Shown piece after piece: positions 4,478 through 25,810 of a stretch of DNA of 34,498 bases. The stretch is from Syntrophomonadaceae bacterium. GTDB lineage: Bacteria; Bacillota; Syntrophomonadia; Syntrophomonadales; Syntrophomonadaceae. Under the pieces are notes generated by a model. That model was not told the origin of the DNA, did no database searches, and saw nothing but the letters and a program-made list of their open reading frames with translations. Within the stretch, counting starts at the first letter, position 1. Every line of letters begins with the position of its first letter. Where the stretch lies: assembly GCA_012718855.1 (NCBI GenBank), contig JAAYBS010000179.1, positions 1-34,498 of the forward strand. Direction: 5' to 3'. Made by a program: the position numbers and the translations under genes.

Positions 4478-4516
4478 GAAAACATTGAAAAAGTGCTCGT
4501 CTACTCAGGATGACAT
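4478..4516. repeat. Dispersed intergenic repeat, right copy (partial)
   Basis: GAAAACATTGAAAAAGT (4478-4494) matches 2423-2439 at 16 of 17 bases in the same orientation. CTCAGGATGACAT (4504-4516) is the reverse complement of 2447-2459 at 12 of 13 bases. A small hairpin (AATCTCG 4535-4541 with CGAGATT 4552-4558) follows. The two copies bracket the CoADR-like gene. Confidence 0.5.
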
Positions 4517-4561
4517 ATATGGAACTTTATTAGTAATCTCGGTCGGTTCTACGAGATTTAA

Positions 4562-21115: not shown

Positions 21116-21994
21116 TTATTCACCCGAACGACTCTTTTTACGGCGGCGATACAGGTATCTGATCAGGTAGAAAATTAATCCAAATACAACTACCCAGGGC
21201 AGGATTACCACCAGGAATACCACTAAACCGCTGCCAAAATCAATCAGCGTATTAAGACTGTTGATCAGTCCCTGCCAGGCTTTACCGATGGTACCCTGCG
21301 GAGCTTTCAGACTGCCGGGCAGTGCTTGTTCCAGAGTTATGTTTACTGTGCTGTAACTGGTAGCGTTGTTCAAGTATTTCAGACGCCCTTTGATTACCTC
21401 TATGTCGCTGCGAACAGCTCCCAATTCCTTTTCCACACTGACAATATCTGTAATAGTGTTGGCTTTCTCCAATAGAGCCAACAGCCTCGCTTCTTTGGCT
21501 TCCAGTACTTTCAATCGGGCTTCGGCATCGTAATACTCCTCAGTGACATCTTCAGTGGAAATGGTCTTATCGGTTAGTTCTCCATACCCGGATATGGTTT
21601 CCACCATGGAGGTTAATTTATCTGCCGGAACTTTTACTGATAAACTGGCTGATATTTTATCTTCGTAGCGGTATTGCCGGCTATTAACCAGATAACCACC
21701 CATCCTGGCAGTCAGATCAGTAATTTGGTCAACCGTGGCGGGAACATCTTTTACCTGTAGAGTAAGGTCAGCGTTTTGAATAATCTTACGCTCCATGCTC
21801 GCCGGAGTCCTGATTTCGTTATCAGCGGGGAGCTTAAACTGTCCGCTTGGGGCAGCATTTTCTGAAAGGTTGGCATCTTTGGTATTGCTTCCGCAACCGG
21901 AAAACATTCCCAGCAGCAAACATAATACCAGTAACAGCAACAAGTTATTGAATACTGACATTGGTCTTCCCGGGAAAGGTTTAATATTGGGCAT
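21116..21994 (-). CDS. DUF4349 lipoprotein with coiled coil and C-terminal membrane anchor
   Basis: 292 residues from ATG 21994. An upstream in-frame ATG at 22006 directly abuts the GAGGGGAG ribosome binding site and is less likely. The signal peptide ends at lipobox FSGC. The DUF4349 domain begins near ERKIIQNADLTLQVKDV and runs through MGGYLVNSRQY and LSVKVPADKL. A coiled-coil hairpin follows (EARLKVLEAKEARLLALLEK, VEKELGAVRSDIEVIKGRLK), then NNATSYSTVNITLEQ. A final membrane helix (GLVVFLVVILPWVVVFGLIF) and a basic tail (RRRKKSR) put the C-terminus in the cytosol. The protein would thus be held at both ends of its external domain. DUF4349 proteins are common in Gram-positives with no assigned function. 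Confidence 0.85.
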   Translation of the reverse strand: MPNIKPFPGRPMSVFNNLLLLLVLCLLLGMFSGCGSNTKDANLSENAAPSGQFKLPADNEIRTPASMERKIIQNADLTLQVKDVPATVDQITDLTARMGGYLVNSRQYRYEDKISASLSVKVPADKLTSMVETISGYGELTDKTISTEDVTEEYYDAEARLKVLEAKEARLLALLEKANTITDIVSVEKELGAVRSDIEVIKGRLKYLNNATSYSTVNITLEQALPGSLKAPQGTIGKAWQGLINSLNTLIDFGSGLVVFLVVILPWVVVFGLIFYLIRYLYRRRKKSRSGE

Positions 21995-22120
21995 TTTGTC
22001 AATCATCTCCCCTCAAAAATAGGTGGCGGCATCATGGAGTGGCTATAGCTGCTAATCAGTATAATTTAATCTTACAATATAAACCCTATACCGGACATAC
22101 GAAAATATTTATAAATCCTG

Positions 22121-22180
22121 TCATGGGGCTTCCCAATCTTTAACAACAATACTGATAACCCCTAACCGTTTATCACTCAT
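22121..22180 (-). pseudogene. Truncated relic resembling the TM1266-type iron-only hydrogenase system regulator
   Basis: On the minus strand, ATG at 22180 is preceded at 8 bases by GGAG and opens a frame reading MSDKRLGVISIVVKDWEAP before TGA at 22121-22123. The N-terminus of TM1266-family proteins (about 80 residues, ferredoxin-like fold, found beside [FeFe]-hydrogenase or maturase genes) has this KR-x-G-V-x-x-I-x-V-E pattern, from memory. It lies just downstream of hydA. The following ~110 bases do not continue the family clearly in any frame, so I read it as a degraded copy. A translated 19-residue peptide is a less likely alternative. The rest of the 22007-22325 gap holds the hydA terminator and a TATACT -10 (minus strand) for the DUF4349 gene. 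Confidence 0.45.
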
Positions 22181-22194
22181 GTTGCCATCTCCGA

Positions 22195-22231
22195 AACGAA
22201 AATATAGCCGCTCTCCGATCAGAGAAGCGGC
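22195..22231 (-). terminator. Terminator of the hydCBA transcript
   Basis: On the minus strand the stem is GCCGCT (complement of 22226-22231) with AGCGGC (complement of 22207-22212), extended by CTC/GAG with one bulged base, then TATATTTTCGTTT. It lies about 95 bases after the hydA stop. Confidence 0.65.
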
Positions 22232-22325
22232 ATATAAAATAATTGTCTGTCCCCGCTAATTCAGCTACCTGTCTTATTATCAGGGATATTATCTATACCC
22301 AATATCATATGGTACATAAATACAA

Positions 22326-24050
22326 TTATAAATATCTTTTGTTTTTAGCATGATAATGAGTATGCAGTAACTCATGAGATTTATGTCCCAGAGGTTCATG
22401 CAGGAACTCATCATAAATAATCTTGACTTCCGGATTTTCATGGGATTTACGGATGGGCATACCTTCATCTTCAACATAGATGGCCTCAATGCGTTCCGCC
22501 CGTTTCTTGTTGGCTTTGGTAAGTGGCTGGCCACCGCCGCCTATACATCCACCCGGACAGGCCATAATTTCAATAAAGTGATAAGGGGATTCTCCTGACC
22601 GTACCTGATCCATCAGTTTGCGGGCATTACTGAGACCATGAGCTATAGCTACTTTAACCTCGGTACCATTCAGATCAACAGCGGCTTCCTTGATTCCTTC
22701 CATACCGCGTACTCCGGTAAAGTTAACATCTTTCAGTTCCTGCTCAGTAACTACTTCATATACGGTACGCAGAGCCGCTTCCATAACTCCGCCGGTAGCG
22801 CCAAAGATAACTGCTGCTCCGGTATATTTACCCATCCAGGAATCAAAATCTGAAGGGGGAAGCTGATTGAAATCCATGCCGGACATACGGAACAGGCGGC
22901 CTATTTCACGCGTAGTAAGCACCAGATCAACGTCCCGATAACCACTGGAGTTCATTTCCGGACGACTGGCTTCGTATTTCTTGGCTGTACAGGGCATGAT
23001 GGAAACCGAGTAAATCTTTGCGGGGTCAATACCCATTTTTTCAGCCCAATAAGTTTTCACTAATGATCCAAACATCTGCTGTGGAGATTTGCAGGTCGAT
23101 AAATTATCCAGCAGATCCGGATAAAAAGTCTCACAGAAATTAATCCAGCCCGGACTGCAGGAAGTAAACATGGGCAGAGTACCGCCTTCTTTCAGACGGT
23201 TTAATAATTCATTGCCTTCTTCCAGAATAGTCAGGTCGGCGGTAAAGTTGGTATGCAGTACATGGTCAAAACCCATCTGGCGCAAACCGGTAACAAATAC
23301 TTCCATGGGCAGTTCTCCGGTATTCATGCCCACTTCTTCACCAATAGCCAGACGAATAGCCGGAGCTATCTGGGTTACTACAATTTTGTCCGGGTCAGCA
23401 ACGGCTGCCAGGAACTCATCAATTTGTTCATTTTCATAGATGGCCCCAACCGGGCAGGCATGGATACACTGACCGCACAAAACACAGGGGCTTTCCATTA
23501 GAGGTAATCCCATCGTTGGTACCACCATGGAATTAACCCCGCGTCCTTCTACTCCCAAAGCAAACACTGACTGTGTAACGCTGCAGGCATCAATACACCG
23601 GCGGCACAAAATACATTTATCCTGGTCACGTACTATCGAAGGTGTGGAGCGGTCCAGTTTGTAACCGCGAACTTTCAGCTCAAAAGGATTGTCGCGGATC
23701 ATATATTCATTGGCCAGGTCCTGCAGTTCGCAGTTCTGATTACGAATACAGTTGAGACAATCCTGCGGATGGTTGGATAAAATAAGTTCCAGAATAGTTC
23801 TCCTGGCTTCTATTACCTGCGGGGTTTTGGTTTTAACTACCATGCCTTCAGTAACCGGTGTTGAACAACCGGCCTGCAGGAGTCGGTTACCCTCTACTTC
23901 GCAAACGCAAACCCGGCAGTTGGCTTTAACTGCCTGGTCGGGATGCCAGCAAAGGGTAGGCAGATATATACCAACTTCTCTGGCTGCCTGCAGGATAGTT
24001 GAGCCCTTGGAAACTGAAACATTAATTCCGTCTATAGTCAGGTTAATCAT
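22326..24050 (-). CDS. hydA: [FeFe]-hydrogenase catalytic subunit, NADH-linked type
   Basis: 574 residues. The N-terminal [2Fe-2S] domain has Cys 34, 45, 48 and 62. The His/Cys [4Fe-4S] site is HPQDCLNCIRNQNC (His94, Cys 98, 101, 107). Two [4Fe-4S] clusters are bound by CILCRRCIDAC and CVLCGQCIHACPVGA. The H-cluster domain carries L1 TSCSPGW (near 296-302), L2 MPCTAKKYE (Cys354) and L3 EIMACPGGCIGGGGQP (Cys 498, 502). It makes or takes up H2 in the cytosol. L1 has Ser where most hydrogenases have a second Cys (TSCCP). The tail HKSHELLHTHYH is typical. It is the last gene of hydC-hydB-hydA, 23 bases after hydB, with GGAGGG before ATG. The maturases HydEFG are not in the window. Confidence 0.96.
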   Translation of the reverse strand: MINLTIDGINVSVSKGSTILQAAREVGIYLPTLCWHPDQAVKANCRVCVCEVEGNRLLQAGCSTPVTEGMVVKTKTPQVIEARRTILELILSNHPQDCLNCIRNQNCELQDLANEYMIRDNPFELKVRGYKLDRSTPSIVRDQDKCILCRRCIDACSVTQSVFALGVEGRGVNSMVVPTMGLPLMESPCVLCGQCIHACPVGAIYENEQIDEFLAAVADPDKIVVTQIAPAIRLAIGEEVGMNTGELPMEVFVTGLRQMGFDHVLHTNFTADLTILEEGNELLNRLKEGGTLPMFTSCSPGWINFCETFYPDLLDNLSTCKSPQQMFGSLVKTYWAEKMGIDPAKIYSVSIMPCTAKKYEASRPEMNSSGYRDVDLVLTTREIGRLFRMSGMDFNQLPPSDFDSWMGKYTGAAVIFGATGGVMEAALRTVYEVVTEQELKDVNFTGVRGMEGIKEAAVDLNGTEVKVAIAHGLSNARKLMDQVRSGESPYHFIEIMACPGGCIGGGGQPLTKANKKRAERIEAIYVEDEGMPIRKSHENPEVKIIYDEFLHEPLGHKSHELLHTHYHAKNKRYL

Positions 24051-24073: not shown

Positions 24074-25297
24074 CTACAATATTTTAGCCTGATAGTCGGC
24101 CATAAAATGTTCAATCGTGGTTATTACCGGCGCGGGTGCTGCCTGTCCCAGACCACATAGGCAGGAAACGGACATAACCCGTCCCAGTTTCTTTAATAAA
24201 GCCAGGTCAGACATTTCTCCGAAACCATCATTTATATTCTCCATAATTTCGGCAATACGCGCCGTGCCTTCACGGCAGGGAGCACATTTGCCACAGGATT
24301 CATGTTCAAAAAAGCCTGCTATTCTGGCGGCCACATCTACTATATCCCGGGTTTCATCCACAACAAACACTGCGCCTGAACCCAGTGTGGCACCAATGGT
24401 ACTCATATTATCAAAGGCTACCGGAGTATCAAGTTGTGATTCAGGTATAAAGGCTCCTGAGGTTCCGCCAATCTGAACCGCCTTAAATTTTTTACCGGCC
24501 GGAATTCCACCACCGAATTTGTAAATAAGTTCTCTGATAGTGGTGTTGGTGGGTACTTCAAAAAAGGTGCAGTTATTTACATCACCAGTTAGCGTAAATA
24601 TTTTTGTGCCTGGATAAGAAGGAACGCCTATGGAAGCGTACCAATCAGCTCCATTCTCAACAATAGCAGGAAGGTTGGCAAATGTTTCTACATTATTTAC
24701 AATGGTTGGTTTTCCCCAAAGACCCTGGGAAGGTGGATAAGGTGGTTTGAAGCGGGGTTCACCCCGGCTGCCCTCGATGGACTCAATTAAAGCAGTTTCT
24801 TCACCACATACATAAGCTCCGGCACCGCTGCGTACTTCGATGGCAAAATCAGCTAATACGCCTTTGGTTACAGCTTGTTCTATAGCCTGATTTAATATTT
24901 TTATTACCTGGGGATATTCACCCCGGCAGTAAATATAGCCCTGTTTAGCCCCAATGGCATAAGCGCAGATAGCCATTCCTTCCAGCAGAGCCTGGGGGTC
25001 ATTCTCCATTATAAGCCGGTCCTTGTAGGTCCCCGGTTCCCCTTCATCAGCATTACAGACTACATACTTGATATCTGACTCCGCTCCGTAAGCAAAAGAC
25101 CATTTCTGACCACAGTTAAAACCGGCACCTCCGCGACCGCGAAGATTGGATTTTTTTACTTCAGCAATCAAATCCGATTGACTCATACTGCGGGCTTTTT
25201 CCAGAGCCTTATAACCGCCCTGGGCTATATAATCCTCAATTTTTAAAGGATCAATCTTACCGTAATTGCGCAGGACGATGCGCATTTCCTCAGCCAT
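24074..25297 (-). CDS. hydB: NADH-binding flavoprotein subunit of the [FeFe]-hydrogenase (NuoF-like, minimal form)
   Basis: 407 residues. The FMN/NADH site includes GRGGAGFNCGQKW (54-66), CNADEGEPGTYKDR (81-94), GAGAYVCGEETALIESIEG and GGTSGAFIP. A [4Fe-4S] cluster is bound by ESCGKCAPC (Cys 335, 338, 341) and a Cys in CLCGLGQ. It oxidises NADH and passes electrons toward HydA. It lacks both the N-terminal thioredoxin-like [2Fe-2S] domain and the C-terminal 2[4Fe-4S] ferredoxin domain that Thermotoga-type HydB has. A similar short HydB occurs in the Syntrophomonas wolfei enzyme that, as I recall, uses NADH without ferredoxin. GGAGGG lies 9 bases before ATG. Confidence 0.95.
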   Translation of the reverse strand: MAEEMRIVLRNYGKIDPLKIEDYIAQGGYKALEKARSMSQSDLIAEVKKSNLRGRGGAGFNCGQKWSFAYGAESDIKYVVCNADEGEPGTYKDRLIMENDPQALLEGMAICAYAIGAKQGYIYCRGEYPQVIKILNQAIEQAVTKGVLADFAIEVRSGAGAYVCGEETALIESIEGSRGEPRFKPPYPPSQGLWGKPTIVNNVETFANLPAIVENGADWYASIGVPSYPGTKIFTLTGDVNNCTFFEVPTNTTIRELIYKFGGGIPAGKKFKAVQIGGTSGAFIPESQLDTPVAFDNMSTIGATLGSGAVFVVDETRDIVDVAARIAGFFEHESCGKCAPCREGTARIAEIMENINDGFGEMSDLALLKKLGRVMSVSCLCGLGQAAPAPVITTIEHFMADYQAKIL

Positions 25298-25366: not shown

Positions 25367-25810
25367 TTAGCGATATTTTGCCAATATTCCAGGGATCGTG
25401 GCTGCATTTACATCCAAATAGGGCTCGCCATTTATAGTGATAACCGGTGTCGCCTGACATTGACCGACACATTCAGTAAATTCAAGTGCAAAAAGACCAT
25501 CAGCAGTACTCTCACCCATAAAAATGCCTAATTCCCGTTCCAGAGCCTGGACAACTTCAGCGGCACCCGCAACATGACAAGGAGCACTTTCACAAATCCG
25601 GATGATGTTTTTACCCCGTGGTTCAGTAGAAAACATTGAATAAAAACTTGCCACCCCATAAGCTTCTGATACCGGGATATTAAATACCTGGGCTGCTTCG
25701 GCAATTACCTCCCGCGGCAGGTAACTGAGTTGAGATTGTACTGCATGAAATGCTTCGATAATACCTCCGGGTTTATCAGCATAACTGGCAATAATCTCTT
25801 TGTAATCCAT
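25367..25810 (-). CDS. hydC: [2Fe-2S] subunit of the NADH-linked hydrogenase (NuoE-like)
   Basis: 147 residues of the NuoE/HydC type, thioredoxin-like fold. Four Cys bind the [2Fe-2S] cluster: CESAPC (Cys 73, 78) and CVGQC (Cys 114, 118). The helical N-terminus (FHAVQSQLSYLPREVIAEAA) and GVASFYSMFSTEPRGKN are standard. It completes the HydABC complex that links NADH to proton reduction. It is first in the operon. GGAGGGAGGAG precedes ATG 25810, and a 69-base gap separates it from hydB. A TATATAT-rich -10 candidate lies near 25855-25865 within an imperfect palindrome (CATG...CATG). Confidence 0.95.
   Translation of the reverse strand: MDYKEIIASYADKPGGIIEAFHAVQSQLSYLPREVIAEAAQVFNIPVSEAYGVASFYSMFSTEPRGKNIIRICESAPCHVAGAAEVVQALERELGIFMGESTADGLFALEFTECVGQCQATPVITINGEPYLDVNAATIPGILAKYR

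Follow-up and report, generated by a model that had tools for sequence, protein, structure and literature searches.

The window, i.e., the whole stretch of 34,498 nucleotides that was analysed, contains the genes of a [FeFe]-hydrogenase, which are followed on the minus strand by an open reading frame of only 19 codons. This raised the question of what the short frame is and how it came to lie there. The hydrogenase genes, all on the minus strand, are hydC (NuoE-like, 25367..25810) and hydB (NuoF-like, 24074..25297), both assigned by family search and by the gene order in relatives, and hydA (22326..24050, 574 codons). HydA scored 886.8 bits with the model for [FeFe]-hydrogenases of group A6 (NF040763, cut-off 765), the NADH-dependent type, and its H-cluster motifs TSCSPGW, MPCTAKK and ACPGGC are found at positions 296, 352 and 497. 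Judged from its sequence, hydA is apparently intact and under constraint; its dN is not raised, being 0.109 relative to the outgroup L063 as against 0.113 for L060.

The short frame (22121..22180, minus strand) begins with an ATG 145 bp past the hydA stop codon, is preceded at a distance of 8 nt by the Shine-Dalgarno sequence GGAG (22189..22192, minus strand), and is translated to MSDKRLGVISIVVKDWEAP followed by a stop. The initial annotation had read it as the ribosome binding site and the first 19 codons of a gene of the TM1266 family, which is catalogued as a putative hydrogenase regulator. A position-specific matrix was built from the TM1266 N-termini of 25 relatives, and all six frames of the window were scored. 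The stub peptide was ranked first among 68,890 positions with 32.8 bits (z = 10), while the runner-up reached 11.2 bits, and on this score the stub is therefore left over from a TM1266 gene rather than being a fortuitous ORF. Its residues 1-19 align with the TM1266 N-terminus, and the N-terminal strand motif RLGVIGIVxEDR is recognisable, with the three substitutions G10S, E14K and R16W (numbering of the family alignment). Among the 25 relatives, G10 varies in none, E14 in one and R16 in four. Each of the underlying codon changes (GGT to AGT, GAA to AAA and CGG to TGG) could have been reached by one G:C to A:T transition.

Scans of the stub peptide with Pfam and NCBIfam yielded no match, because 19 residues are too few for the family HMMs, and the full TM1266 domain (about 76 positions, TIGR03959 cut-off 60.8 bits) is absent at this site, where the frame stops at residue 19. 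By its sequence, the stub is the remnant of a family member and not itself a member. A continuation of TM1266 as a frame-shifted pseudogene past the stop was considered and rejected: the next 1 kb corresponds to the sequence that follows hydF and includes the DUF4349 gene in a sister genome, and when the stub was joined by hand to a frame-shifted continuation, neither Pfam nor NCBIfam gave a match.

The gene order of relatives was used to determine what had once been present at this site. The nearest relatives in which the locus was assembled share the order hydC-hydB-hydA-TM1266-hydG-orf95-hydE-hydF (L060, L061 and L048/L062; gene families confirmed), and a similar order was found in Thermosyntropha (L063 and L066). 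The stub thus occupies the position at which relatives carry a full-length TM1266 gene, directly after hydA, in line with the proposal that an ancestral hyd locus had carried the gene at this place. The order in this genus had to be deduced from other genera, because the hydCBA-TM1266-hydG part of the same-genus sister G001 is unassembled. Between hydG and hydE the relatives have a conserved ORF of 95 amino acids (L048:6092-6379, minus strand) that belongs to no NCBIfam family. It is probably the counterpart of the domainless 348-bp SWOL_RS05185 in Syntrophomonas wolfei.

The other side of the locus was revealed by contig C204 of the sister, which carries the 3′ end of hydE, hydF, a DUF4349 gene, a tRNA-Pro, two small ORFs, a GIY-YIG gene and a histidine kinase gene, and which is collinear with positions 22125-19092 of the window. 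The identity of 85% stops exactly at 22125, at the stop codon of the stub, which on the sister's side is 57 bp past the hydF stop codon. The junction can therefore be placed at 22121..22126 (minus strand), with sister homology (21116-22125) on one side and TM1266 homology on the other. The DUF4349 gene (21116..22006, minus strand), which follows hydF in the sister, was assigned by family search and by this comparison. As codon 19 of TM1266 is joined to post-hydF sequence, two ends of one operon are fused in the window. Short dispersed repeats at 1866-1921, 2431-2472 and 4500-4542 of the window also occur directly past the sister's DUF4349 gene.

These results point to the following scenario. 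A full-length TM1266 gene would once have stood directly after hydA and headed a maturation operon TM1266-hydG-orf95-hydE-hydF. A single deletion, for which a comparison with the coordinates of L060 and L062 suggests a size of about 4.4 kb, would have begun near codon 19 of TM1266 and reached to 57 bp beyond the hydF stop codon. It would have fused the stub to the sequence before the DUF4349 gene, in which CATGACAG supplies the stop codon, and would have left behind as an orphan the leader upstream of TM1266, a conserved hairpin with an intrinsic terminator. We consider it highly probable that the stub is the 5′ end of TM1266 left by such a deletion, and that the leader was orphaned by it. One event is inferred, and the junction rests on one assembled bin that is 82.7% complete. 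The initial annotation was right about the loss of TM1266, but the gene did not vanish alone: the breakpoint relative to the sister indicates that hydG, hydE and hydF, i.e., all three H-cluster maturases, are gone as well, most likely through the same deletion. Gene loss in itself is ordinary, and the relic is a genuine by-product of the loss of the maturation operon.

The leader was recognised in the gaps between hydA and TM1266 of 16 relatives, which are essentially unalignable outside one block. In 23 sequences this block forms a hairpin of nine pairs that is interrupted by an internal loop, G[AC]/[GA]A; pairing is seen in 93.7% of the cells, and five pairs are changed on both sides. This covariation was matched by none of 500 shuffles and by none of six slid registers. 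In the window the hairpin core CCCUGAUAAUAAG...AGCUGAAUUAGCGGGG lies at 22251..22285 on the minus strand (22285-22251, CCCTGATAATAAGACAGGTAGCTGAATTAGCGGGG), within a match to the covariance model R1 at 22289-22248 that scored 47.3 bits. At the gathering score no Rfam family was found in the leader region of the window or in four loci of relatives, and a TM1266-linked or hyd-linked RNA motif was not found described in the open-access literature, subscription journals lying outside the scope of the search. The conserved, TM1266-linked leader of hairpin plus terminator is the new part of the findings; besides the window (22285-22199, minus strand) it was noted at L060-L101, L123 and further loci. 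Two positions, the second G in the AAGG motif and the A that precedes GGGG, are altered in the window copy alone among the 23 sequences. Together with the substitutions in the stub, which also lie at invariant or nearly invariant positions, these changes are as expected of unconstrained DNA, and from the sequences they look like decay after the loss of the genes that had been served.

They also bear on the possibility of an assembly or strain artefact, in which the start of TM1266 was misjoined to post-hydF sequence and the living genome has an intact operon. The bin is a fragmented MAG (2.09 Mb in 231 contigs), the sister bin breaks inside hydE at the same locus, the two bins share one almost identical hydrogenase contig, so that binning is imperfect, and hydA looks constrained. 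However, a false join of intact pieces should have left stub and leader unmutated, while G10S, E14K, R16W and the two leader changes are at positions that hardly or never vary in relatives. The changes thus argue against a false join, and an artefact is unlikely. Even less probable is an insertion or translocation of the DUF4349 block into TM1266, with the maturation operon moved elsewhere intact. The operon does move, as TM1266-hydG-hydE or hydF are found away from hydA in several relatives, but the collinearity with the sister, which runs from DUF4349 past tRNA-Pro as far as the histidine kinase gene, comprises a whole neighbourhood and not one gene, and the sister's neighbour of the DUF4349 block is hydF, the last gene of the very same operon. 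That the 19 codons are a functional short gene or a leader peptide can practically be dismissed in spite of the ribosome binding site and the start codon, since the sequence is the start of an 80-amino-acid domain family, substituted at conserved positions, the TM1266 genes detected in relatives keep an open frame across the full domain with no short version in any of them, and homology to the sister begins only at the stop of the stub.

A deletion of the maturation operon raises the question of how HydA would be matured. In the assembled bin, which is 82.7% complete, no TM1266, HydG, HydF or HydE was found; the best match for HydF (2.6e-16) was at the level of other GTPases, and that for HydE (2.4e-4) was a distant radical-SAM match. 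The suggestion that TM1266 was lost owing to another copy elsewhere was thus not supported within the assembled part; a relocated copy may be hidden in the portion of the genome that is missing from the assembly. An unused hydA should carry stop codons if the stub has drifted so far, yet it has none, and its unraised dN fits poorly with a long-standing loss of the maturases. It therefore appears more likely that maturases are still encoded in the unassembled part, or that the loss is young. The deletion would provide a natural example of a bacterium of the syntrophic type whose [FeFe]-hydrogenase genes are intact while no H-cluster maturases are visible, and it bears on the question whether electrons are passed on by such strains as formate rather than hydrogen. 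In the relative G011 (99% complete) a hydA with 79% identity was found at G011:C6:1286-3007 and no HydF; this may be either a further hydrogenase that lacks visible maturases or a problem of binning.

In comparison with known systems, the stub shares the [FeFe]-hydrogenase/maturase operon setting of the TM1266 family (TIGR03959; PDB 2NZC), but keeps only 19 of about 80 residues. In S. wolfei, hydE and hydG, with a short ORF in between, adjoin hyd1ABC (PMC5626996), which encodes the same kind of NADH-dependent trimeric hydrogenase as hydCBA of the window. In contrast to the window, S. wolfei retains the maturases, with hydF elsewhere, and in contrast to the closest relatives TM1266-hydG-hydE is upstream of hydCBA (L123). 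The three [FeFe]-hydrogenases of Clostridium thermocellum were disabled by removing only hydG (PMC4355364), which shows that the loss of a maturase disables all [FeFe]-hydrogenases at once and gives the question of maturase loss physiological weight; that case is an engineered removal of a single gene, whereas the window would represent a natural loss of the whole set.

The distribution of the leader was determined by running R1 over the whole genomes of relatives. Among the 48 matches listed, 43 share the strand of a TM1266 gene at a distance of 23-251 nt, 30 of them upstream of it and 13 just downstream; for the latter, hydG is next in most of the loci examined. The remaining five comprise the window, the 3′ end of one hydA at the edge of a contig (G007:C189), and three weak matches away from hyd genes that were judged to be chance (G026:C1:588625, inside a MogA-like gene; G001:C188, between folB and folK; and G007:C22, before a MerR-like gene). 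Of 41 genomes, 26 have TM1266 and the element, four TM1266 only, ten neither, and one, that of the window, the element only (Fisher P ~9e-6). When 42 hydA loci with a sufficiently long 3′ flank were compared, the element was present in 15 of 16 with TM1266 next versus one of 26 without (P 2.5e-9), the local matches being partly by construction because most model sequences came from the same loci; the genome-wide exclusiveness of the element to TM1266 is not by construction. The exception was L086, a contig that carries the label Desulfosporosinus sp. Tol-M, in which the element (L086:11788-11828) is found before a second hydA. At L086:12000-12420, upstream of this second hydA, two nearly identical segments in tandem look structured and are probably RNA elements.

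Between the hairpin and the stub lies an intrinsic terminator (22199..22236, minus strand; hairpin 22236-22203, -16 kcal/mol, then TTTT). A terminator within 100 nt past the element was found for 28 of 30 copies, compared with 1-3 of 30 in dinucleotide shuffles. In five of 24 distinct copies (expected 0.04) 8-9 bases in the 5′ arm of the element are perfectly complementary to bases in the terminator's 3′ half, for example CCCTGATAG/CTATCAGGG in L063 and CCCTGATAA/TTATCAGGG in L066. The longest complementarity between element and terminator was 5.2 nt, versus 3.7 nt with base-shuffled terminators, and the effect was modest when partners were swapped (two of the measures gave P 0.008 and 0.0009). 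These pairings hint at a possible antiterminator. No such pairing is visible in the window copy, and a uniform pairing for all leaders was not found, as the pairings differ between copies. The constant orientation of the element relative to TM1266 fits an RNA, and we propose that the leader would act on TM1266 and the maturases by attenuating transcription. It would share with riboswitches and protein-controlled attenuators a short conserved structured RNA followed by an intrinsic terminator and a gene, and, in some copies, the complementarity between element and terminator; it differs from them in lacking an Rfam match, in having only nine pairs, and in being tied to TM1266/hyd genes.

A mode of action of TM1266 was not found in the open-access literature searched. 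The protein was predicted to have a beta-alpha-beta-beta-alpha-beta, ACT-like fold (pLDDT 90), which matched 2NZC (Thermotoga maritima TM1266) and then the regulatory domain of NikR (TM-score ~0.8). With 86 residues there is no room for the DNA-binding domain of NikR, and a regulator without such a domain beside an RNA leader makes control at the RNA level an attractive idea. TM1266, or its ligand-bound form, would set the leader to terminate or to read through, and would thereby control itself and hydGEF by attenuation; a metabolite riboswitch is an equally open reading. That the leader represents a new class of RNA which regulates [FeFe]-hydrogenase maturation and on which TM1266 acts, with the window as a natural knock-out whose leader is decaying, is a tentative and rather doubtful proposal. 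The element, found almost only beside TM1266 and together with terminators, is a concrete target for probing the putative regulation by TM1266.

A second [FeFe]-hydrogenase cluster was observed on G000:C94 (L191) and on G001:C182 (L032). It encodes a HydA, a small subunit with a possible Tat signal and a cytochrome b-like protein, and the two copies have identical ORFs and are 99.2% identical over 3.1 kb, whereas other orthologues of G000 and G001 are about 85-91% identical. This similarity suggests either a mis-binned contig or a recent transfer.
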